From Physcia stellaris (Eukaryota; Ascomycota; Lecanoromycetes; Caliciales; Physciaceae): a stretch of DNA of 64,000 nt. Below are positions 47,837 to 64,000 of the stretch, piece by piece. The stretch spans positions 248,001 to 312,000 of the forward strand of contig JABSSW010000048.1 of NCBI GenBank assembly GCA_018902385.1. The letters run 5' to 3'. The notes under the pieces are model-generated. The model was not told the DNA's origin and did no database searches. It saw only the letters and a list, made by a program, of their open reading frames with translations. The stretch's first letter is position 1. Every line of letters begins with the position of its first letter. Made by a program: the position numbers and the translations under genes.

Positions 47837-48116
47837 CAAAATCGGGATGTTTTTCTTCGCAATACCATAACATATGCAATAATGGCCTGATTCTATTGAT
47901 TTTTGCGTCGTTGTGAAGCTCGTCTCCTGCGCTACAAATCATACACATAAAGTTAATTCATTGATCGAAAAGTGATGATGATGTTGAGTTTCGAAGTTGT
48001 TTACTTTCGAGATCCACAACGAGGTCGAAATCTTTCGAATTCGCTACATCACATTCAATCATCTATTTCCTATTGAAACTTGATGTTTTGAATAGTTCTA
48101 TGTATGTATTAATGTC

Positions 48117-48482
48117 TCAAGAATCGACATAATTCGTCGTCGCGATTAATGCGTTGAAACGCATTACTTTTTCGAAAAGTTGAAATTTTTTCTTTTCGTT
48201 CTCAAACTTTTTCTTTCTTTTTTCAAATTTTTTCTCATCGATATTCGAGTTCTGTATAGATGCTTCAAACGTTTCGAACACAAACGAATAAAAATTGACG
48301 TATTTCATTTTTTTTACGTCATTTATATTCAATGTTTCGATCACGACGATTTCGACGTTTTCGAAATTTTCGTCATTTTCGTTGTTTTGATTTTCGCTTT
48401 GCTTTTTTTGTTTCTTTGCAAACTTTCGTTGAGTTTTGCGTTGTTTTGTTTTTTTGTTCTTTGTTTTCTTTGCAATATACAT
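48117..48482 (-). other. Low-complexity Lys/Asn-rich reading stretch, origin unknown
   Basis: 121 codons open on the minus strand, mirrored by a Phe/Leu-rich frame on the plus strand. The minus reading is Lys/Glu/Asn-rich and ends with a short less biased tail. CpT is still present in this part, so mutation is less complete than further right. It is most likely a transposon remnant or a chance frame from AT-rich DNA. Confidence 0.3.
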
Positions 48483-48599
48483 AAATTTACACTCTTTTGT
48501 TGTGATGATTTCGAATATAAATGTTTTGTATTCTCGAATAAACTGATCGTCGAATCAAATTTCAAACTCGAATGCGTCGACTTGATTCGATTTGCAAAT

Positions 48600-51500
48600 C
48601 GAAAATTTCGATTTGAATTTGAATTTGAATCAAGTTCAAATTTTTAACACGTTAAAAGATTTGAACTTGAATCAAATTTCAAGTCAAAATGTTAAAATTT
48701 GACTTGAATTTGAATCAAACTTCAAATTTCGATGTCGAGTTTGATTTGATTCGTCAAAAATTCTAATTTCATGACGTATTATATTATTTCGCGATATTTC
48801 TGATATTAATTATAGATGTTTTTTTTTAGAATTTTCGAATTTTTTTTTTGCATTATTTCATATAAATCAAACGTGATAATTATAATACTATTTTGTATTC
48901 GAAATTATTATCAATTTTTTTCGACAATTTATTATTTTTTGAATTATATTATTTTTTGATTCAAAATTTTCATCAAACAATTGCAATTATCATATTTGCA
49001 TTATTTTTGTGCATTATTTTGAGATTTGATTTCGTGTTATATACAATTAATGTTTCAAATTGCATTATCACTTTGCATTATTTTTATCATCTATTCAAAT
49101 GTCAAATAAAATGTCGAATTTCGAATTGTTTTCGAATTTCTTTTCGTTTTCAATTCAAAATTTAAAAAATTCGTTCATCATGAACGACGATGACGATATG
49201 TCAATTGACAATTTTCAACAATCAATCATTTCAATTTTTGATAATCATTACAAATTTCAATCATCGATAATTTCAATTTTTGATAATTGTCAAATTTAAA
49301 TAATCAAATTGACGAAAAAATTTCGAACAAAACATTTTGATTTTAATTTTCATAACAATAAAAAATATGTATTTTGAAAAAAAAAAAAATTCAAATGTTT
49401 TTTTAAAATGATGAAAACAAATCAATTTTGATGAAAATATTTTGAACAAAATTCAAACAAAATACAATAATTCACATTGATCGAACAAGAAAAATAAAAT
49501 TGTTTTATGTTGACAAGAATTTGTTCAAATAGCGAAAATGTTTGACGAAACATCAATGATTGTTTATAAAACATGTCATAAAATTCAACAACATTCGTTA
49601 AGCGCAAATGACGACATCAACGTTATGAACAAACATTTGAAAAACGCAAAACATCGTTTTAAAATTGAAAAAAAAAATCGAACAATGTCGTTTGATTTTC
49701 AAAAAATAATCGAATTTTTCGAAAATATCAATGTAAATTTGTTGAATAATGCATGTTGATAATGCATTTATTTATTTTTATTAAAAAAAAAACAAATTCG
49801 ATTTTCGTACAACATTCGACGAAAATTTTTTGAAAAACATTTAATCAAAATTTTTATTGTTTGTGATTTTTCTTATCGAACGATCGAAAACGAACATTTT
49901 CGAATATGTTTGAAAATGAGTCGATTCATTTTGAAATTATCACATCGTATCAAATTAAATCAATTTGTAACGAAAAATTATAAAAAAATTCGTGATCAAT
50001 TGAAAAACGAATTGAAAAATGTTAATCGAATTTTTATTTCGTTAAATGTTTGATTCAATCAACAAAAAATCGTTTATTTAAATGTGATAATATATTGAAT
50101 GAATATTAATTTTCAATATCAAAAAAAATTTATCGATTTTGTTTCGTTAAATGTTTGTCATGACGAAAAAAAAATGTTAAATTTTTTGCTGTCAATATTA
50201 AAATTTTATGAAATAACAAAAAAGTTAATGACGATCACGATTGATAATGCATTCAATAATCGCATTTTCAAACAATTATTGAATTTAACGATGATTGAAA
50301 TGAACATTAATTGAAATGTGAATCAAAATTTCATGAATTGTTTAATTCATGTGTGCAATTTAATCGCACAAAATTTTATCAATTCGATTGAAATCGAAAC
50401 TATTAACGATAATGTTATTCAAAATTTGAAAAATGATCAAATCGATGACATCGAACAAAATACAAAAATGTCAAAAATCGTCAAAAAAATAAATCAATTT
50501 GATAATGCAAAAAAATAATGCATTTGTTAACAAAATAATCAAATTCGTGTTTTGACGATTGTTATCAATTTTTTCGCAACGAAAAATTCGCTTTGTGAAA
50601 TTACAAAAAAAAGCAAAAATTAAACGTTTTCGAAAATTGAAACAAAATGTCAAAATTCGTTGAAATTTCTGCTATTTTATGATACGACGTGTTTATCAGT
50701 TTCGACGATTCGTTAATAAATGAATTCAAAAAAATCGCAACGATGTCAAAATTGCTAAAATTCGAATATTTGATGATGATTGAAATCAAATTTTATTTTT
50801 CGAAAACATGTTAAAAACATTTTACGAAATCACGTTGATTGTTTCACGAATCACGAACATTAATGTGCAAATTGAATTTAAAATTTTCAATTTTTTATAC
50901 GATCATTTGAATTATTTCAATGAAACGATACGACAAAATCAATGTTTCGACAAATCATTAATCTTGATTGTTTGTGCGAAAATCATTCAAAAACTTTTCA
51001 AATATTATGCGAAAACAAAGAAAAATGATGAATTGATATACGATTTTGTTAATATTTTAAATTCAATCAACAAGTTATCGATTTATGAAATCTGAAATGA
51101 AAATGACAATTTCGAAAAAATCACAAAAAAAAAAAAAACATGCGTATATCAATGACGTTCGTAAACGATTTTTGAATTACTATCGAAATCATTATGATGA
51201 CAAAATATATGATAATTTTCAACGCGTTATTTTTCAATCGTTCGATAAAAAAGTAATGCATCAAAATAATGCATTGAAATTCAATTTAACAAAACAATAA
51301 ATTTTTTTTATTAATTCGATTTTGCGATCGAATCGAAAATCGAAACAATCACAGAACGAAATCGAACGTTATTTTTTTATATCAATCATGAAAGAAAATT
51401 CTAATTGACAATATTGAAACGATAATGTTTCGAGTTTTTTTCGATTGATTCGAATGACGAAAAATATTTTGTTTTGTTTTGTTTCATCGATAAAAATGAA

Positions 51501-51650
51501 ACGAATTTTCAATTTGACACGTCGAATTTGTAAATATAATCGAGCAATGTTGAATCAAAAAACGATTGAAAAAACGATGATAATCAAATATTATAATCGA
51601 ACGATAAATGCAAAATCTAAAAATGTTGTTTCGAAAATTTGAAATTTAAT
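48600..51650 (+). mobile_element. Decayed hAT-family DNA transposon
   Basis: The plus strand carries broken pieces of a hAT transposase. There is a start-like MSNKMSNFELF at 49099 and a BED-finger-like patch near 49550-49660 (C...SA....NKHLKNAKH). The catalytic-domain motif TITIDNAFNN lies near 50228-50260, with a following LIHVCNLIAQNF block at 50340-50380. The C-terminal dimerisation region (RIFNLTRRICKYNRAMLNQKTIE) is near 51490-51570. Stops interrupt the frame many times, so it cannot be active. The inverted repeats at 48624-48708 may be its left subterminal region; no matching right terminus or target duplication was found, so both ends are approximate. Confidence 0.65.
48624..48708. repeat. 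Two adjacent inverted repeats
   Basis: A first imperfect palindrome has arms around 48624-48647 and 48651-48676. A second at 48678-48708 has ten-base perfect arms (CAAGTCAAAT-like / TTTGACTTG). The motifs TTGAATTTGAATCAA and TCAAGTTCAAATT recur. Such clustered motifs are common in the subterminal parts of hAT elements. Confidence 0.6.
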
Positions 51651-52068
51651 AAAACGATAAAAAAACGAAAATAATGAAATTGCGATGAAAAATGCTTTTC
51701 GTCGTTCAATAAAAAAAATGTTTCGTTTTATGATTTCAAGATTTAATAATAGACGATTTGAAATGAAATTTGCAATAATCATCGATAATGCAAACAGATA
51801 ATGCATAAATTATTTGCATTCAATCAAAACATCGAAAATATTAATTAGATTGCGCATAATCGCATATAATTGCAAAATTTAATTTTCGAATCGTATAAAC
51901 GCTGATTTTTTTTTTTTTTTTTCAATTTTCATTTTAGTATCTTAATTAATCTATTATTAATAATTTATTTGATAAATTATCTCGTAACGCAAACAAACAT
52001 GAATTTTATGAAATTTGAAAATTTGTATTTTTCATTTTATTATCTGAATATATTATTGATAATACAAT
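51651..52068. other. AT-rich spacer between hAT relic and element A
   Basis: 418 bases of AT-rich DNA with homopolymer runs. Two similar segments (near 51930-51975 and 52030-52075) share a TTTTCATTTTA-TATCT core. No coding remnant was recognised. Confidence 0.4.
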
Positions 52069-52254
52069 TGTTAATGTAATGAATGTAAAAAGCTTGATTG
52101 ATTATTTAAAAATCAATGATCAGATATATATCATAATAATTACATAAATCGAATCATTCAGTTGACTGAATGTCGATTGATTGATTGAATGTTAATTACA
52201 ATTAATTATTCATCTGACTGTTTTCAAGTTTTAGTCACATGTCAATTCATAACA
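52069..52254 (-). repeat. Candidate 3' LTR of Gypsy element A
   Basis: 186 bases bounded by TGTTA and TAACA, the same inverted ends as the LTRs of element B. It lies where the 3' LTR of a minus-strand element is expected, about 200 bases past its chromodomain. The partner LTR would be outside the window, so the call cannot be checked by pairing. Confidence 0.35.
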
Positions 52255-53359
52255 ATCTGTCTCAATAGAAAAAAGTTAGCATTCGTTTCGATATTATTCA
52301 TATCATGTTTCGTATCAATATTAATTACATATTCTTAACATATCAAAGTTTAATCGAGTCGAGAAAATCGACGAATCAAAGCGTTAAAAAAAACGTCAAC
52401 AATAAAAATTTTGAATGAAATGACGACGACGAATTTCTGTTCAAAAAAGATTTTAGTAATTGACTTAATCGACTTAATTAACTTAATTGACGACGAAGTT
52501 AGCGACGATAAAATTGACGACGACGAGTTCGTAAATTCACTAAATGAAATTAGACGATCAAATAAAATGCTCTAAATCATAATCGCTTCGTATTCATCGA
52601 CGAAATTCATAACGTTGTCAAATTTCGACAAGTTTTTTCATACATCGTGTTTTGATTCGTAATCTTTTTATTCAACAAAATATTCAACGTTTCGTTTTTT
52701 GATCAAACGCTTGTTAATGATGCGAAACGATTCAAAAAATTTGACGTTGACTGTATCGTCGTTCACAAAGACGAAATCAAAATGATTTGATTTAGAACGT
52801 TTGAAAAAATCAACTGAAAACGATGAACATTTTTTCAGTTGTGTCACGTTGAAAACTGAATGAATAAATCAATTGTTAGAAATATTCAGTCGATAAATCA
52901 GACGATTAATCTTTTCGATGATAATAAAAAATTCAACGAACTGTTGATCATACTTTTTGCTAATAGTTGAAAATATATTGTAATTCTTGTGTAACTTGAT
53001 GAGCGCGACGTTTTCTTGTTTCATGAACATAAATTCATGCTTTTTGTTATAATAAAACTTAGCATTCATTTGATCAAAAACTATGACATCATTAACATTT
53101 TGACGAGTGATAAGACGACGTTTTTTTAACGTGAACTTAGAAATATTGACATCGATAAACTTAATCAAATCAATGATTTGAATTGAAATAAAATCGTAAA
53201 CGATTTCATTTGAAAAATTTTCAATGTTAACTGAATTGTTGAAATCTCGTTGCACATGTGACAAGATTTCAAATCAAAAATCAAAATATTTCAACGTAAA
53301 AATCAGAAAGCGAAAAACGATTTCGACGATTTGATTGATTCGTTCGAACAAATCATCAG
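52255..53359 (-). mobile_element. Ty3/Gypsy chromovirus A, 3' internal part (fossil)
   Basis: Minus-strand remnant holding, in order, a piece of the integrase core at the 53280-53359 edge, the integrase C-terminal region (about 52869-53264; Y-x-K-K-H...L-H-K-x-Y pattern) and a chromodomain-like segment (about 52540-52760). It is broken at several points. Its upstream part resumes at 60823 after element B, showing that B inserted into it. The family is assigned from the integrase-chromodomain order typical of fungal chromoviruses. Confidence 0.75.
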
Positions 53360-53553
53360 TGTTATGGCACAAGATCAGATTAGATGATATGAACTTAAAT
53401 CAAATATTCTGACATGACTTTTGACAAGAATTCTGTCGTCATCTCATATTAAATGAATGATGATCAAACAATTGACTCGCAATTACTGTACATAAATTGA
53501 CATTTTGTCGCTCATAATTTCTAAATCAATCAATTCACACATCAAGTTTAACA
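53360..53553 (+). repeat. 5' LTR of element B
   Basis: 194 bases, beginning TGTTA and ending TAACA. It aligns without gaps to 60629-60822. Confidence 0.92.
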
Positions 53554-56500
53554 ATTGATAGCATCATTCAAACGATGATTTGTACGTAAACAAAACGACA
53601 TCATTTTTTGCTTTTTAACGTATCAGTTTTCGAACAGTTTTGCATTCTGTATGCAAGTCAATTGCTCATCAATACTTTTTTCACGATCGCAATCAAAGAC
53701 TTGATTGTCGTTTGACTGACGTTTCGATTGACAGTCAATTATTCATTTTCATCAACAATCAGTATTCATTTGAAAATAAATCATTCAATCACGTTTTCTC
53801 GACTTTTTACAATTCTCAATAGAAACGACTGATCTTTTTTTCAAATAGCTGAACATTTCAAGCTTTCGTTTGAATTCGTGTTGCTATCGCTCAATGACGA
53901 CACACTTGAGCGTCAATTCATCATCGAATTTTTGTTTGATTCGAGCAATTCAATTCAACGATTTCATTTGTTTTTTTATCAACAAATAATTTGCTCAACA
54001 AGTCTTGAAAATTTCAGCTCGCTTTTTTTTTTTGTTTTGTTTATCATCATTTTATTTCAAATTTCAGTACGACACATCATTTTCATTTAAGTCATTTTGA
54101 CTGTTTTCACATCACAAATCATTCGTATTGCGTTTGAATTATTCGATTACATCGATACAATTGATTCAATTTATTTTGTCAATACATTTGCAAAAGTTAT
54201 TGTGAACAATATCGTAATTAGTTGTTTTAAATCAACATCGTTGTCAATTATTAATCATTCAATTTCGACAAACATTGTTTATTCAACAAAATGAATCGTC
54301 GACAGAATTCGTTTTCGCAAAAATTTTAAAATTTTCGTGATCGTCATCGAAACGTATCGAAACAATCAATCATTTTTCGACTGAATTAGTGATCGAATTA
54401 CGTCATTTATTTTTGATTTAAAATCGACGATTGCAAATATTTTTTTTGATATTTTTTACGTTCATTTTTCGAAAAATTTACGTCGTAAATTTCAAATCAT
54501 TTCGTCGACGTCGTTTTTTCAACGACGAAACAACATCATAATTTCGCTGAACATCATTTTTCGAAACACAAAAAATATCGAATTTATTTTCGCATTCAAT
54601 TCAAATATGACGAACGAAAATAACAATTGACAAAACATGAAATTTACGCAACAACAATGACAAATTTTTCAAACATTGATTACAGATGTTCGAAACGATG
54701 TTCAAACAAAATTTCAAAAATTCGTCGAATCATCAAATTCAATCGAATTTTTTGACAATGATGATGACGTCAAATGAAATGTTCAAAAAACAAAATTTTT
54801 CGATTCGTGATACGAAAAAAAAAACGTTATTATCGACAATTCGATCGAGCATTCGAACAAAAATACATATTTTCGAAATGTTCATCTTTACATTGAAAGA
54901 ATTAAAAATATGACATTGCTCAAAAATGCTGATGTGATTCGAGCAAATTTTTATAATTGCATGCGTGATCACGCGTTACGTTGATACACAAAAATAATCA
55001 ACGATGATTAAAAACGATTGATCAAACTCAAAAATGACGTAAAAAAGTGAAAACGTTTGTTGTTGAAACGATACAAAAATCGTCATCAACAGCGTTGACG
55101 ATCATCACGAAAAAAAAATACACGATGAAGAATGCTCGTCGACATCGCGAGTCATTCGACTTCGCTAAAATTATAATCAAAAAATTAAATCGACAATGAT
55201 GTCAATCTATTCGCAATTGTATTTAATTTACAATGAGTTGAAACTGAAATTTCGACGAGATTTGATCAAGTCGACAGAGAAAATTATCATGAATGAGTTT
55301 TTTCAACAACTTGATGATAAGAAGAAAATATAATGAAACATTGAAAACAAATATCGTTTCTATCATTCATCCGAAGACGATCGTCGTTTTCAATTCATTT
55401 ATCGTTTTCAAGTTTCAATTTCATTCGATTCGTATAATACTTTCTTTTTCATCAATGAACGTAGTGATTACGAAAATTTCAATGAATTTTTTTCGCAATC
55501 ACGGCAAACGCAATATTCAATTTCGTATCAATTTGACAAGCAGAATAACGTTTACGTTTTTCAACAACAACAACGTTCGTATCAATCAGACTATTCAAAT
55601 CGACAACAATCGACACAAAATATGCAAAAACGTTCATACGAAAATCAACAATATCGATTTCAACAAACGCAACAAGACGAAACTCAAAAAAATCGAAACA
55701 CGTTCGATTCGCGATTTCAATACTCGCAATTTTTACGTCTTAGTAATTATTTTGCTGATTTTTCAAATTCATTTCCGTTTTCGTTTAAACAAGATATTTA
55801 TTTTAATCAAAATGAAACGTTTAATCAAAATGAAACATCATATCGACGAGCGTATTTTGCGAAAGAAAAAGCAAAAAACAATTACTCAATCGATGAAAAA
55901 AGCTATCAAGATGATTACAACATGAATACTGAAAACGCGTCAAAAATATCTATGATAGATGATGAATATCATGACGAAAAACATTTCGAAATTCAGAAAT
56001 TTAATGAAAATTATGTGATTCATGAATCATTCGAATATTTTGTGAATATTTCAGTCAAGCAAACAAAAATTTATGCATGCAAACGTTGTCAATCGAAATT
56101 TTATTTTAATAACAAATTTCATCGACATTTGCGTTCGTGTCAAACAGTTTCGATTAAATTTGACACATCGTCGACGAAAAATGCTCATAATTATCAAACA
56201 TTTATCATACAATCAAGTGTCAAAACAGATACACGACTCAGTTTCGAATTTCGTTCATGACGTTACGTCACGATGAAAGCAAACATAGAACAATTTTTCA
56301 TTGATATGTGCGTCGATATCGAATGCGATGCATTTTTAATCGATCGTAAATTTTTGATGCAAGAAATATTTGATTACAAAATTCATGCGCGACAAATCAT
56401 GAAATTTTTCAAAATTCGCGACATCGAAAATGTCGTCGTCATCACAATTGATCATATTTCATTAATTTTTCGTGTTTTTGAAATTTCGATTGATGACGAC

Positions 56501-59500
56501 GATGCGATCGTCACATTTACGCGACAAATTTACATAATGAAAAAATTGAAAACAAAAGTTTTTTTAGACAATGATATATTGAATTCAAAACAAATAAATA
56601 TAAATGTAAACAAACAAGTCGTCACTATAAAAAGTTGCAAAAATATTCGAATTAAATTAAATGTCATTAATGTTGAATCACAAGTCAAACGCGTTATTCG
56701 TGCTAACGAGATTATTAAAATTTCAATTAAATCAATTTTTACAATTTTTTTCAAATTACGTGAAAAGAATAGTTTATTTATTGAACGCGACTTTATGTTC
56801 ACGCTTTCACGAATTGAACGACTAAATCAAAATGAAAATGTGCTTTCACATATCATCGATGCACATACAAAAATCGTTCAAGCTCACAACATCAATTTTG
56901 AAAATGTTTACATTTTCAAAAATACGCGTTTGAAATTCGTACAAAAATACGAGAAAAAAGAATGTTATTTAATTAACTCGAAATACGTTCATTTAGCTGT
57001 TAATGCTCATAAATTTGTTTCTAAAAATTGATTCAAGCAAACGTTGAAATTTGATGTTTCGATCATGACAATTGACGCGACTATGACGACTAACTATGAA
57101 AATTTGCACGATGCGATCGCGATTAATTTCGTCGATGTAAATGTCGATTTTGCGTTCAATTTTGCACGCAATTTTAACGATTTTATTGCTGTAAATTCTA
57201 ATATTAATGCGAAAAAAATTTTGCTTGTTGAAATTATCGTTTACGATGACGTTAACGCTCGAATTAAATTTGCAAACGTTGCGTTGAATTATTCAGAATT
57301 ATAAAACGACAATGAATTTATCGTGCGAATTTCGAAAAATGAGTGAATGTCAATTGAATTCAAATTCGACGCGAAAATAAAAACAACAAAAATCTATTTT
57401 TTCGATTTCGCAAATCGAAAATTAGTTGATAAAACTTTCGATAAATTGCACGTTCAAAAACGCATGAAATATATCAATCAATTCATTTCGCATGATTATT
57501 TTGTTTTCGTCGTATGAAAAACAATATTTGAATCGAATGATTCAAAACGCAAAAATCGAATCGTCGTCGACATACGCGAGCTAAACAAAATCATTTTCAT
57601 CGATTCTTATTCAATGTTTTTTCAATTTGACATTATTGCAATCGTCGTCGAATGCAAATTCATTTTCGTTTTCGACGCAACGGATTTTTTTCATCAATGA
57701 TTGATAAAATTTGCAAACAAACATAAGTTTATCGTCGTTTCACATAAAAAACAGAAACAGTTTAACGTGATCGTGATGAGTTTTAAAAATTCATCATCAT
57801 ACGTACAACGACGAATCGATTTTATTTTTTGAAATTTTCGCGAATTTGCTCGTGTCTACGTAGACGACATTGTCGTTTTTTTCAATATTTTTGAAAAACA
57901 TATGATTCATTTACATTCGATATTCGAACGATTGAATATTTATGAAATTAATTTGTCGTCGAAGAAATCGTTTTTCGATTATTTTACGATCGCATTTTTT
58001 GATCAGAAAGTTGACGTTTTTGATTTCATTATCGCAGTCGATAAATTGAAAACAATAATCAAATTGAACTTTTCATATATTTTGAAAAATCTGAAGATTT
58101 ATTTAAATTTAACAAAATGATTACGAAATTTTGTCGCGTTTTATGCTCAAAAGACGAACGCGTTACAACGTCGCAAAATTTTATTTTTACGTCAATCTTC
58201 AAGCAACAAAAAAACGATTCGCAAAATTTATTCGCAAAAAATTGTAATGAACAATTTTTCAATTGAGAAATTAAAATCATATCGATTATTGCAAAAAACT
58301 TTTAGCAAAATTTCATTTTTGATACATTTCAATTTCGATCGAAAATTGTATATCGACATCGACGCGTTTAAACGACGCGAATTTGACGCGATAATTTATC
58401 ATCTTAAAACAAACAACAATTCAAACAAATTCAAGCGTAACGACATCGAATTCATTTTATTTCTAAGCAAAATGTTGAACGAAATCGAAATCAAATATTG
58501 ATTCATCGAATTCGAAATGTGTGACTTAGTATGAATTGTCAGAAAAATTCGACATATGATAAAAGCAATCAAAAATATCATTGTCGTTTTCACGAATCAT
58601 GTCGTTAATATTTTTATCGTTAAGCAAATCACGATGAATTCGAACAACATCGATAAATTCAATTTTCGTCTCGTTCGTGTTTCAGTTTATTTGTCACAAT
58701 TTAAATTGAAAATGAAATATAAATCAGAAAAAAATCATGTCGTTTCGAATGCGTTATCAAAATTAGTTTTTGAAAATGAACAAATCGACAAGAATTCAAA
58801 AAATAAATTTGATTTGAACACATATCATGACGAAATAATCGATTTTTCGAATAATTTCGATTGCTACGTTTTTCAAAACATTTTTATCGCAATGTCGAAA
58901 AATTTAAAAAAAAAAATCAAAAACGAATATCAGAACGAAAAGACGTAACGAAACATGATCACGATGTTAAAATCGTTGACGATTCGAATGCACGAGAAAA
59001 AACAGAAATTGTCGATTCGAAATTTTCAAATTTCATCGTCGTTCGAAAACAACGTAGCGAAACGAAACGTCAATGAACAAAAAAATGACGATACGAAATT
59101 TATATCAAAGAAATTCAGAACAAAAATCAATTTTGCGATAGATACGAATGACATTATATATCACGTTGACATTGATTCGCGTCGATCGTGTATATCGATC
59201 ACAATGAAACGCGAAATATTTCGTTTAATTCACGATCAAAATCATCATTCGAAAATTCATCGATGTTATGACAGAATTTTCAATACGTTATACATATTTC
59301 GATTTTCGCGAAAAATCAAAAAATACATCGAGCATTGTTTTATTTGTCAATTAACACAAATTAAACGTCATCGATTTTACGAAAAATTGATGTTTATCAC
59401 ATTCGTTTCGCGTTCGTTTCATATCATTGTCATTGATTTCATTTTAATTATGTTTGACGAAATGAACATTGTTATGTTCGCAATTTGTAAACACTCTCGT

Positions 59501-60628
59501 CGAATTTCATTGATTTTCGACAAAAAAATTTATGAAACGAAAAAATGAATCAACGTATTACTGAACAAATTGTTAATAATCGATTGAGATGTGCTTGAAA
59601 TTATAATTTCAAATCGAAATTTCAAATTCATGTCGAATTTTTGACAAGTGTTTTTCATTAAATTAGACACGAGATTGCTAATTTCAATGACATATCATTC
59701 GCAAACGAATGATTCGTCAAAACGAATCAATCAAATTGTTGAAATTGTTATCAGATATTTCGTCATCGAATTTTCGAACATCGATTACATTTTAATTTTT
59801 TTTGCAATTCAAATTCAATTAAACAACACGTTTAACATCGTTACAAATTTATCATTCAATAAAATCATATACGAATTCAAAATCAAAAACGCGATATCAA
59901 ATTTAATCGAATTTAACACAACAAATGTATAAAATTTGTCAATTCAACGCATGAAATATCAGCGAAAAATTGTCGATATCACAAATTTTACAATTGTCAA
60001 AATCAAAATATATCATGATTCACGTCATATTTTTATTCGATTAAAACAAAATGAAAAAATCTATTTACAATTCAATAAAAATTACAAATTGTTTGACAAA
60101 TCAAATTCGAAACTATTTCAACAATGTTGCGAATCATTTCGAATTTTTGAACGCATCGAACGTTTAACGTATCGATTGAAATTGTCATCAACATAACGAA
60201 TTTATTTCGTTGTGTTTATTGCACAATTCGAATCAACATTTGTCGAAATTGATTTTTACAATCGTTCGCGTTTTCATTATTTTGATTTCATTGAAATCGA
60301 AAACGATACGAATCAATACAAATTTTATGAAATTGAGAAACTAGTCGGAAAGCGAACTAAAAAATACAACAAAATTTTTGTAATTCAATATTTAGTCAGA
60401 TGAATCGACTATGAATCGAAATATGACGAATGACGATTTATTTCAAAACTGAACAACGTCACGAATTTCATTGAGCAATATGAATTCAATCATTCGAATG
60501 ATGCTGATGATCGCAACGACAAAAAAAGAGCGAGAAGAAAATAAATTGATGCATGATATGATTACGCATGATGATAAAACATGAAATTCAATGAAAACAT
60601 TGATTTTTCTTTTTTTTGATTGACAAAT

Positions 60629-60822
60629 TGTTATGACACAAAATCAGATTAAATGATATGAATTTAGATCAAATATTTTGACATGATTTTTGACAAAGAT
60701 TCTGCCGCCATCTCATATTAAATGAATGATGATCAGACAACTGATTCGCAATTACTGTACATAAATTGACATTCTGTCGCTCATAATTTCTAAATCAATC
60801 AATTCACACATCAAACTTAACA
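60629..60822 (+). repeat. 3' LTR of element B
   Basis: 194 bases, beginning TGTTA and ending TAACA. It is followed at once by the second ATCAG target copy. 177 of 194 positions are identical to the 5' LTR. Confidence 0.92.
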
Positions 60823-61253
60823 ATCAGTTTGAAAATGATAAACAACTGAATATAAAAACTTAATTTTTAAACGAGTAAACATGACAATTCACATGTTCGA
60901 CAAAAACTTTCTGTCGCGATTCGAAATAATAATTTTAAATAATTTTCAATCAGTCATATTTAGACGATTTAGCAAAACGTAATTTCATTGTGCAATTGTT
61001 CATGTGTTCTTGTTTGAAATTAGCACTATACGTTTGAAATATTTACAGCTAATCGACATCACGCAATCGAATTGATCGATTCGTGACTTTGATAAAATCA
61101 AAATGAAATCGATAATGATAATGTGAAAGAAAATATTCGAAATGAATATAAATTGCAACGAATCATAAAATTTGTGACGACGTGTTTAATATGTTTGACA
61201 CTTAAAACAATGTTTAAAAAAATCTTTTAAATATTTAAACAAATCACGAATGT
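60823..61253 (-). mobile_element. Ty3/Gypsy chromovirus A, integrase part (fossil)
   Basis: Read on the minus strand from 61253, this encodes a recognisable integrase: the second half of the zinc-binding HHCC module (C-F-K-C) and then the DDE core with I-D-F-I-L and I-S-N-R-D-R-K-F-L. It stops exactly at the insertion point of element B and continues at 53359. Its own upstream part is cut by the LTR of element C at 61254 and lies outside the window or is lost. Confidence 0.8.
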
Positions 61254-61425
61254 TGTTACAGCCGTGCGTGGTAGTCGGTATTCATTAAACGAGGATTCTA
61301 AAACTAGGGAGGAAAGATGTACAGGTGGAGGCCGAAATGCCTGATGTAGGGCCTGCGAGTGCCAAGGCCCTAGTCACGTGTTCCTCCCAGCCCTGCGGCA
61401 ATGCCTCCGGGGCACGCTCGTAACA
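61254..61425 (-). repeat. 3' LTR of element C
   Basis: 172 bases bounded by TGTTAC and GTAACA. The left flank is AATGT; the second target copy would lie outside the window. It contains a CACGTG. The boundary between AT-rich and normal DNA falls exactly on its outer end. Confidence 0.75.
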
Positions 61426-61440
61426 CTATCCCCCCCTCTC
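61426..61440 (-). other. Polypurine tract of element C
   Basis: On the minus strand the 15 bases immediately before the LTR are GAGAGGGGGGGATAG, nearly all purine. This is the usual priming site for plus-strand synthesis of LTR elements and fixes the element's orientation. Confidence 0.75.
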
Positions 61441-61809
61441 TGCAAGCTTCGTCCCGAAGCGACTACCTCTCCCATATCCCTTTCATCGGCCGGCGGTTCC
61501 AGGGGTATCGTTGGCGGGGGTCCAGGTAGTTGAACAGGCCATTGCGGAAGCTGGAACGACCGAAACAGGTGCAACAAACGTGATCTGGGGGCGGAGATCG
61601 AAAGGACGGCGGAGACGTAGGCGGAGATGTAGGCCGAGGCCATGCGAATGAGGACCTTGACTGCAGAAATGAGGACCTTGGCTGCAGCGAGGTGTAGGAG
61701 ATGCCTGGCTTTTTGTATGGCGGAAGGGCCGATTTCTCTGGCAGAGCCGAAGCAGGGCGGATCGGTTTCGCAGGCATATGCTGCTGAAAACTCTTCGGAT
61801 TCGAGCTTT

Positions 61810-63633
61810 TCAGACCTTGACTAATCGGTGCCTTCTGATTGGCTGCAGGCAGGAAGTAGGAGGTGATTCGTGACTGGTAGGTGGTAGGTGGACAAGCGCC
61901 AGGGTTCTGCGGAGAAGGACGACGCTTTTGGTGCTGCGGCAGGCCAAATGGTCTCGGCTTCTCAGCAAACATGCGGTGGAGGTCATGGATTGTAAGATAG
62001 GACTTCGAGGCCGATTTTCGAAGCCTTGGTGGAGGTGTTGCGGGCGGGGTGAGCGGGCAATCGACTGATGCAGTCTCCGCGCGCTTTGATGCTGATTTTG
62101 GTGTAGGTATCGGGAGACGTGAGCGTTTTGGTGATGTTGTTGGTGCAATAGGTGCAGGAGTGGCGGGCGGAGTAGGTGGATTTCTTGGCCGTTCTGGGGT
62201 GTGACTGGCCTAGATATCGAAAATTTTGATGTTGTTGTTGGTGAGGTGGTTGGTGGAGTTGTTGGTGAGGTTGTTGGTGAGGTTTTATCTCCCTCTCTAT
62301 TGCAGCTTCGTCCCGAAGCGACTTTATCTACCTCCTTCGCTGTATGGTGTTGGCGGAGGTGCTCGTGGAGTTTATTCTTTGACTCGAAGGCCCCCTCGCA
62401 TTGCTTGCAGACGGCTTTTTGGCAGGTGGCTTCCTGAGTATGCTGCAATAGACGGGCCAATGACGAGTAGGACGCGGAGCAATTGAGGCACGAGTGATAT
62501 TGAGGCGGGGGACGAGAAACAGGCGGATTCGGTGCAGGGGCTTCGGATTTTGAAAGAGGTTTCGCAGGAAATGCAGTGGCCAGGGCTTCTAGCCACTCGC
62601 TTAGGCCCTTGGCGGTTTCGCTTTCGCTTTGTTCTTTATACCATGTCAAAGCAGGGCCACGTAAGCAGGTGTGGAGCACTTGGACTAGGTCGGCCTCGCG
62701 GTAGTTGGCTCGGATACGCTGCAATTGCTGACAAAAGGTAATCGCCTCGTGATGTAAGCCGAACTCCTGGATATCGCACAGAAGAGTTGGATCGAAATAA
62801 CCGATATCTGCAGCAACGGGGGTGGGTTTCGCGGCTTCGAGTTGTAAGACGAACGGGCATTCAGGTGAGTCCTGAAGATGTTTCTTCAACGGTTCAAAAT
62901 CTCGGTTACCGGCTACTTTCAGCGAGCAATGCATACATCTTGCTCTGTATCCACCATTGGTGCACTTGAATCCAGCGGCGGCCATGAGTTCCTTAGTAGG
63001 ACCTGTCTTTGTCCAAATCCAATATTGAAAGCTAGCTAATCTCTCTTCGTATGTGCTCAGGGATTTGACGGGCGAAGCGGGAGCAGGAGGAGGTTCGATT
63101 TTCGGCTTTGCAATAACCTTTTCAACGATCTTCAACTCAGCTTCTTTCTGGAGTTGTATGGCGAGCGGACAATGCGGTGCGTTCTGAAGATGCTTCTTCA
63201 ACGGTTCGGGTGTGAAGTATCCACTGTATATTAACAACGAGCAGGTGGTGCATTGCATGACGTTGGCATCTGAATCGTTTCCACCTCCTGAAAAGCCTGC
63301 GGCGGCCATGACTGCTTTGGAATGACGAGGTGTTTCCAGAAACCTCCGGCAGGGTTTTAGGCTCGCTAATCGCTCTTCATATGTGGATAACGGCTTCAAA
63401 GGGGGGGGATTCGTAGCCCTACAACCAGAGGGGTGCAGAAATATAGAATTCATGGCGGGCGGATTGAGATCGAATTGAGGAGTCTCCTGAACGAAGGAGG
63501 AGAGGGCGCGTCTATTTGGCCTGCAAACGCGTATGTTTTCGTCAGGTATCTCGAGCTGTAATGGAGATATGCTCGAGCAAAATCTGGAGGAGCTTGCTGA
63601 GCAGGTAGGGTAAATGGGGTGCGGGCGGAGCAA
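61810..63633 (-). CDS. Gag-like protein of element C with two BIR-type zinc modules and C2H2 fingers
   Basis: A 607-codon open frame inside element C. Residues about 84-160 and 193-265 are two related modules that each start STYEERLAS and contain an MAAAGF turn. Their zinc ligands fit the baculovirus IAP repeat: Cys128-x2-Cys131-x16-His148-x6-Cys155 and Cys233-x2-Cys236-x15-His252-x6-Cys259. Residues about 277-357 look like a retroelement capsid helix bundle (CLRGPALTWYKEQ). Two zinc fingers follow: C382/C385/H398/C404, and a classic C2H2 at C409/C412/H425/H429. The remainder is Pro/Ser/Thr-rich. The role is inferred as a structural, nucleic-acid-binding Gag, with C2H2 fingers in place of a CCHC knuckle. 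What the BIR-like modules do is unknown. The N-terminal start is uncertain. Confidence 0.7.
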   Translation of the reverse strand: MLRPHPIYPTCSASSSRFCSSISPLQLEIPDENIRVCRPNRRALSSFVQETPQFDLNPPAMNSIFLHPSGCRATNPPPLKPLSTYEERLASLKPCRRFLETPRHSKAVMAAAGFSGGGNDSDANVMQCTTCSLLIYSGYFTPEPLKKHLQNAPHCPLAIQLQKEAELKIVEKVIAKPKIEPPPAPASPVKSLSTYEERLASFQYWIWTKTGPTKELMAAAGFKCTNGGYRARCMHCSLKVAGNRDFEPLKKHLQDSPECPFVLQLEAAKPTPVAADIGYFDPTLLCDIQEFGLHHEAITFCQQLQRIRANYREADLVQVLHTCLRGPALTWYKEQSESETAKGLSEWLEALATAFPAKPLSKSEAPAPNPPVSRPPPQYHSCLNCSASYSSLARLLQHTQEATCQKAVCKQCEGAFESKNKLHEHLRQHHTAKEVDKVASGRSCNREGDKTSPTTSPTTPPTTSPTTTSKFSISRPVTPQNGQEIHLLRPPLLHLLHQQHHQNAHVSRYLHQNQHQSARRLHQSIARSPRPQHLHQGFENRPRSPILQSMTSTACLLRSRDHLACRSTKSVVLLRRTLALVHLPPTSHESPPTSCLQPIRRHRLVKV

Positions 63634-63775
63634 TCAAACAGCTGTTCCCGACGGGGGCAGAGAGGACACGTCTATTTGGCTTGTAAACGCGTGTATTTCA
63701 GGATCTTTCTCGGGCTGTAATGGGCAGGATACTCGTGCAATTGCTGGAGGAGTTGCCGAGCAGATAAGTAGGTAG
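63500..63775. repeat. Imperfect tandem duplication of about 160 bases in element C
   Basis: A segment near 63500-63620 recurs near 63660-63770, with the shared core TCTATTTGGC at 63511 and 63671. A third, shorter copy of the CTCGTGCAATT...GCCGAGCAGGT part follows up to about 63815. It lies upstream of the Gag modules. Confidence 0.6.
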
Positions 63776-64000
63776 GTGTTGGCTCGTGCAATTACCGAAG
63801 GGGTATGCCGAGCAGGTGGTAGGAAGGCGGCCAATGGGGTTGTACGGCCTGAATAAGGTCGTACTGGTGTAGCAGTTGATTCTGCTGTATGGTAGGCCAG
63901 ATTCTGGGCCTTGGTTGACTGATTCAATAGCACCGTTGCTTGGTGGTGCTACTCAGTCCTTGTTGCCTTCCTTCGGCCACTGGTGGTTAAGCAGACGCAT

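Follow-up and report, generated by a model that had tools for sequence, protein, structure and literature searches.

The window analysed here is a 64,000-nucleotide stretch of the ascomycete Physcia stellaris (GenBank assembly GCA_018902385.1, contig JABSSW010000048.1, positions 248,001 to 312,000 of the forward strand), in which genes lie beside a nest of transposable elements whose cytosines have been lost almost exclusively where a pyrimidine follows. Coordinates below are those of the window. The genes of the flank match ArgJ, Cse1, tuberin/RapGAP, a phospholipid-translocating ATPase, Sec16, a class-III aminotransferase and a SET/AWS/WW protein, a set of genes that would suit a filamentous ascomycete as host. 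Within the nest, element B (53360-60822) is a Ty3/gypsy long terminal repeat (LTR) retrotransposon of the Tf1/Tf2 type: its LTRs begin with TG and end with CA, a 5-bp target duplication encloses them, and its reverse transcriptase, RNase H and integrase follow one another in the gypsy order. These domains were searched on separate pieces of the pol frame. Among solved structures, the reverse transcriptase matched those of Ty3 and of '8r0s Enzymatic polyprotein', and the integrase matched Ty3 integrase; a YVDD motif and the H-H-C-C ligands are legible by eye. The reverse transcriptase, integrase and SH3 pieces lie in one shared frame (57.5-60.2 kb). B has inserted into an older minus-strand gypsy element, O, splitting it in two. 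O is in turn cut at 61253 by element D, probably, though not provenly, an LTR transposon, whose second LTR would fall outside the window. To the left of O lies a further AT-rich stretch, region A (Table 1).

Table 1. Features of the nested elements, in window coordinates
Feature	Coordinates	Strand	Remarks
Region A, mutated AT-rich DNA	47860-52583		heaviest at 49000-52000 (CpC 0, CpT 7 per kb)
O, left piece (integrase end, C-terminus)	52584-53357	-	35% identity to B pol, 264 columns, E 2e-43
Left target duplication ATCAG	53355-53359		directly outside 5' LTR
5' LTR of B, 194 bp	53360-53553	+	91% identity to 3' LTR over 196 nt
pol frame of B as counted, 1,689 codons	55337-60403	+	1 Pro, 1 Gly, 0 Trp
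B reverse transcriptase	57518-58117	+	RVT_1 below Pfam cut-off; above it (1.1e-8) with X at stops
B RNase H	about 58265-58420	+	RT_RNaseH_2 match below Pfam cut-off
B integrase zinc domain	about 59200-59360	+	Integrase_H2C2 1.8e-9, above Pfam cut-off
B Tf2-like SH3	about 60053-60190	+	SH3_Tf2-1 below Pfam cut-off
3' LTR of B, 194 bp	60629-60822	+	pairs with 5' LTR
Right target duplication ATCAG	60823-60827		directly outside 3' LTR
O, right piece (integrase)	60829-61251	-	43% identity to B, 134 columns, E 3e-30
LTR-like end of D, 172 bp, TGTTACG..TGTAACA	61254-61425	-	after polypurine stretch; bounds mutated region
D open frame, 607 aa	61810-63633	-	BIR PF00653 E 4.4e-15, 2 stretches; C2H2-like finger; gag-like by eye

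A preliminary description of this DNA had suggested mutation of repeats from C followed by a pyrimidine (CpY) to TpY on both strands, and the composition of 47860-61253 agrees with it. The GC content is 27% there, compared with 49% in 1-47859. CpC is nearly gone (9 CC and 6 GG, or 15 in 13.4 kb, observed/expected 0.03), and CpT is reduced to about one third of expectation (CT 0.33, AG 0.34), whereas CA (1.31) and CG (2.97) exceed it; in the flank, all dinucleotides containing C or G lie at 0.87-1.17. Among 200 mononucleotide shuffles of the region, CC and GG together numbered 492 +/- 20 (minimum 443), CT and AG 1,319 (438 observed), CA and TG 1,326 (1,719 observed) and CG 246 (728 observed). 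Expressed as densities, CpC falls from 56 per kb in the flank to about 0.6 in regions A and B, and CpT, at 66 in the flank, to about 16, while CpA (61-66 versus 69) and CpG (47-60 versus 55) stay near flank density, so cytosine loss is almost confined to C with a pyrimidine on its 3' side. TpC is not depleted (1.46). The two strands of B are similarly affected (CC 4 and GG 4, CT 111 and AG 137). The preliminary description had found no CpT or CpC in four lines of the B interior, which does not extend to the whole interior, where about 11% of cytosines are still in CpT. The mutated region ends sharply on the right, at the start of D, and gradually on the left, over roughly 250-500 bp. Both 1-47859 and 61254-64000 are of normal composition, and the D stretch (61254-64000), with CpC 73.5, CpT 66.4, CpA 66.1 and CpG 61.2 per kb, is unmutated.

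The most direct evidence comes from the two LTRs of B, which were one sequence at insertion. Re-alignment over the full 194 bp reproduced the 17 differences described before, 9 C/T and 8 G/A, with no transversion and no indel. Taking the C or G form as ancestral, the changes fall at 13 of 19 CpT and 4 of 4 CpC sites and at 0 of 36 CpA and 0 of 6 CpG sites (65 C:G sites in all). Thus 17 of 23 CpY sites differ, compared with 0 of 42 sites at which a purine follows the C (Fisher P = 5.4e-11). The earlier claims that every changed C precedes a pyrimidine, and that none is at CpA or CpG, therefore hold; the split into 14 CpT and 3 CpC does not, on account of the neighbouring positions 53428 and 53429, at which one copy has GA and the other AG, so that the ancestor is taken as GG. 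Eight changes occurred in the 5' copy and nine in the 3' copy, and no other position changed (0 of 171; 95% upper bound 1.7%), so that divergence is 74% at CpY and below 1.7% everywhere else, in a comparison that is blind to sites mutated in both copies. Within CC, the changed base is the first C. Because of this, and because TpC is not depleted, the process reads the base 3' of its target. The LTRs also differ from the B interior in density, with 36-39 CpC and CpT per kb (16 in the interior) and sparse CpG (15.5 versus 63 per kb).

To express these patterns as rates, unmutated flank DNA was mutated in silico with four context rates, which were fitted to each target region. For the B interior, the fit mutates 99.1% of CpC, 76.7% of CpT, 5.4% of CpA and 0.2% of CpG sites. 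Alternative models of B are worse by 3,813 log units for a Neurospora-like order, 4,277 for no mutation, 2,868 for equal rates and 12 for CpY alone. Starting from the composition of D gives the same order in B (CpC 99.4, CpT 77.9, CpA 10.0, CpG 1.0%). Element O (52584-53357) gives CpC 100, CpT 68.8, CpA 6.5 and CpG 0.4% from the flank, and 99.9, 68.5, 11.7 and 4.2% from D. The fit over 48200-53359, representing region A, gives 100, 80.9, 15.8 and 7.4% in the same order, and the core of A (48500-52199) gives 100, 88, 17 and 12% from the flank and 100, 88.4, 20.4 and 16.9% from D. In 13 of 13 pieces of 1 kb, the CpC and CpT rates were above those of CpA and CpG; in 7 of these 13 the CpC rate had reached the limit allowed by the fit, and it is accordingly to be read as 'very high' and nothing more exact. 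The target order is thus CpC > CpT >> CpA and CpG, with CpC near saturation, which qualifies the CpY description in that CpC is mutated harder than CpT.

Coding capacity provides a further line of evidence. A CpY rule predicts that codons for Pro (CCN), Gly (GGN) and Trp (TGG) should be lost, that new stops should arise from TGG to TGA, and that codons for Gln, His, Cys and Met and the CGN codons for Arg should be kept. In nine flank frames (of 20 open frames), Pro, Gly and Trp account for 6.0, 6.0 and 1.3% of codons, whereas the pol frame of B has almost none (Table 1). The codons predicted to survive occur in B pol and the flank at 5.7 and 6.3% (Arg), 5.0 and 4.2% (Gln), 2.5 and 2.4% (His), 1.0 and 1.4% (Cys) and 2.0 and 1.7% (Met), respectively. 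The stops in B pol are 13 TGA, 4 TAA and 0 TAG, or 7.7, 2.4 and 0 per 1,000 codons; the rates fitted to dinucleotides predict 12.0, 2.9 and 0.7. A CpA rule predicts 0.4 TGA, 34.3 TAA and 19.0 TAG, and a CpG rule predicts 6.9, 1.6 and 2.4 with Pro, Gly and Trp retained. For the four TAA stops, either a mutation at CpA or some other source must be assumed. These counts exclude 54680-55336, where the frame is doubtful; the wider span 54680-60448 holds 19 TGA, 8 TAA and 0 TAG, with 5 TGA and 4 TAA upstream of the counted stretch and 1 TGA downstream. Element O repeats the pattern: its left piece (258 codons; 3 TGA, 1 TAA) and right piece (141 codons; 4 TGA, 1 TAA) together make 399 codons without Pro, Gly or Trp, with 7 TGA, 2 TAA and 0 TAG. 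The derivation of the B stops from former Trp codons rests on the codon-level prediction and on consensus sequences; alignment to solved structures placed no stop on a Trp column, the matched chains carrying other residues there.

Four lines of evidence support the proposal of CpY-to-TpY change on both strands: comparison of the two LTRs, the fits to dinucleotides, codon content and the kinds of stop codon. These signs, namely C:G-to-T:A transitions only (17 of 17), on both strands, in transposons whose unique flanks are spared, are those of repeat-induced point mutation (RIP) in the broad sense. The CpA feature of classical RIP was tested and is absent: CpA-based indices (TpA/ApT 0.445, (CpA+TpG)/(ApC+GpT) 1.434; thresholds as in published surveys, product 1.1 and substrate 0.75) call RIP in 0 of 25 index windows. 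The signal, which is real and strong, is thus that of RIP-like mutation targeted at CpY and not of classical RIP; the preliminary description had likewise suggested a hypermutation system with a different target. We consider it probable that these nested elements lost their function through a RIP-like process that hypermutated C to T in repeats, at CpY and on both strands. By analogy with RIP, the enzyme would be a DNA cytosine methyltransferase-like protein of the RID or DIM-2 kind whose target preference has shifted from CpA to CpY; it would be triggered by sequence duplication, would act before meiosis, and may have mutated these elements in several rounds. As D is intact, not everything in the vicinity is affected by the process.

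Comparison with known systems, here as described in passages of the papers cited, shows how unusual the target is. In Neurospora crassa the order is CpA > CpT > CpG > CpC, and in Trichoderma reesei CpA and CpG, about equal, come ahead of CpT and CpC (PMC5496416). The process seen here shares with Neurospora RIP the C:G-to-T:A changes on both strands of repeats, the choice of target by the 3' base and the sparing of flanking genes, but its order is nearly reversed and TpA is not enriched. CpT is targeted with CpA in Magnaporthe oryzae, Botrytis cinerea and Sclerotinia sclerotiorum (PMC4352252) and in Anisogramma anomala (PMC10998396); in S. nodorum the target is CpA, plus CpT in some classes (PMC2621366), and in Colletotrichum truncatum it is CpT or CpA depending on the family, with a strongly lowered CpA index (0.08-0.12) in the CpT families (PMC6180176). 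For S. sclerotiorum, PMC4188875, citing Clutterbuck 2011, states that CpA and CpG are mutated more than CpY. CpT is common to these fungi and to the present case, but CpA, also a target in M. oryzae, B. cinerea, S. sclerotiorum and A. anomala, is kept here, and the passages on CpT-type RIP fungi do not name CpC as a target. CpC does appear in Monilinia, as CpC-to-TpT double mutations beside CpA (PMC8959702). The nearest precedent for CpC in these passages is Rhizoctonia solani AG8, in whose heterozygous C/T sites, by Table 2 of the paper, CpC is the commonest CpN class (one per 214 bp over the whole genome and 301 in repeats; PMC4014442). That case differs in being variation between nuclei that affects genes like repeats, as well as CpA, CpG and CpT, and its authors call it CpG-biased (PMC4014442). 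Transposon targets other than CpA are also described in the basidiomycete Microbotryum (RIP-like mutation at CpG or TpCpG) and, as CpG together with CpA, in Aspergillus nidulans and Tuber, but the CpG targeted there is spared here. CpG-type RIP-like mutation was accordingly rejected as a candidate (none of the 6 LTR CpG sites differs, and the B fits mutate 0.2-1% of CpG sites; 12-17% in the core of A). Loss of CpC and CpT with retention of CpA and CpG was not found described in the passages of RIP literature searched, a set outside which several RIP papers lie.

Several other explanations were weighed. The elements might derive from a very AT-rich source or from families that always lacked CpC and CpT, a possibility that the preliminary description itself had raised and with which the shared bias of B, O and A would agree. 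For the 17 LTR sites this can be ruled out, because both LTRs started as a single sequence when B inserted and now differ at CpY only. Furthermore, a pol frame with stops and almost devoid of Pro, Gly and Trp cannot be a working ancestor, so ancestral composition is unlikely for the remaining sites as well, and the CpA and CpG densities match the flank; as an account of the whole it is highly improbable. Ordinary RIP at CpA, as in Neurospora, would explain mutated repeats with spared flanks, transitions only, and the small CpA component, yet none of the 36 LTR CpA sites differs, the indices call none of the 25 index windows, and the predicted 34 TAA and 19 TAG per 1,000 codons contrast with 2.4 and 0 observed. 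We give it practically no chance of being correct. Much the same must be said of APOBEC-like editing of minus-strand cDNA during reverse transcription, even though a retroelement hypermutated by C-to-T changes alone is what it would produce. APOBEC-like enzymes read the base 5' of their target, whereas the context here is 3', and cDNA editing is excluded because the strands are equally affected (9 C/T and 8 G/A; CC 4 and GG 4).

Slow decay, in which long-methylated CpY cytosines are lost by spontaneous deamination of 5-methylcytosine with no active mutator, would likewise yield C-to-T changes on both strands of silenced repeats. Non-CG methylation with a preference for CpT is reported for Neurospora DIM-2 in passages of a review (PMC13297926) that do not mention a CpC preference; this is, however, a preference of methylation and not a record of mutation. 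Decay would have to run at some 40 times the background rate. Because 17 of 23 CpY sites changed in LTRs that are free of indels, against 0 of 171 other positions, and because the reverse transcriptase, integrase and SH3 pieces of B still share one frame, active mutation is favoured, and we regard decay as unlikely. The mutator might instead be an unnamed one unrelated to RID and DIM-2, such as a deaminase reading a 3' pyrimidine. The target order comes near to inverting the one given for Neurospora in the passages of PMC5496416, and no feature here identifies the enzyme, but a 3'-neighbour rule is a RIP trait and, in the passages cited above, the target of RIP already differs from fungus to fungus (CpA, CpG, CpT); such a mutator seems to us improbable. 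There is a small but appreciable chance that the elements record a separate defence, a mutator with a nearly inverted target whose enzyme is either far re-targeted or distinct from the known RID and DIM-2.

Some observations sit less easily with RIP-like hypermutation at CpY. All the evidence comes from three mutated stretches (B, O and A) at one locus. CpA is not wholly spared: the earlier statement that it survives is mainly borne out, but the fits mutate 5-20% of CpA sites across B, O and A (5-10% in B, 7-12% in O and 16-20% in A), and a CpY-alone model costs 84 log units in region A and 12 in B. These fits take the flank or D to represent the original composition of the elements, so that the minor CpA component may be either real or an effect of a different starting composition. 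Mutation is lighter in the LTRs than in the B interior although the LTRs are present twice per element. Finally, D adjoins the mutated region, is probably a transposon and is untouched, and the duplication trigger is thus put forward by analogy. D may have been spared because it is younger than the last round, because it is single-copy or because it is not recognised.

If RIP-like hypermutation at CpY holds genome-wide, mutation directed at repeats can have an almost inverted target, and a comparison of CpA-type with CpY-type enzymes could reveal what sets the target choice of RID or DIM-2. CpY mutation also leaves a recognisable fossil, in the form of frames that have hardly any Pro, Gly or Trp and in which TGA is the prevailing stop, and such frames could be mistaken for a genetic code in which TGA encodes Trp. 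If it should be a separate system, it would be invisible to CpA-based RIP scans, and similar defences may hide in genomes scored as RIP-negative.

With regard to the remaining features, frames at 49514-51095 in region A resemble a hAT transposase by eye; nine pieces of A searched against Pfam gave no support for this, and no convincing terminal inverted repeats were seen among the best 25 of 57 pairs. An AT-rich palindromic block at 48551-48753, 73% identical to its own reverse complement and containing two 65-nt direct copies, is perhaps a transposon end. Searches of viral contigs found no copies of the B LTR (as a degenerate pattern) and no relatives of the B integrase, and the frame of D gave 32 pattern matches in viral and 59 in prokaryote contigs, of which 0 were confirmed; these collections are non-fungal, and the misses say little. 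The presence of a BIR (inhibitor of apoptosis) domain inside the LTR-like element D is odd. Its BIR segments are duplicated (62839-62895 and 63151-63207, 82%), and a 38-bp direct repeat (84%) links 61427-61464, just before the polypurine stretch, with 62286-62323 inside the frame. A further direct repeat of about 110 bp (63500-63607 and 63660-63766, 76%) lies upstream of the D frame.

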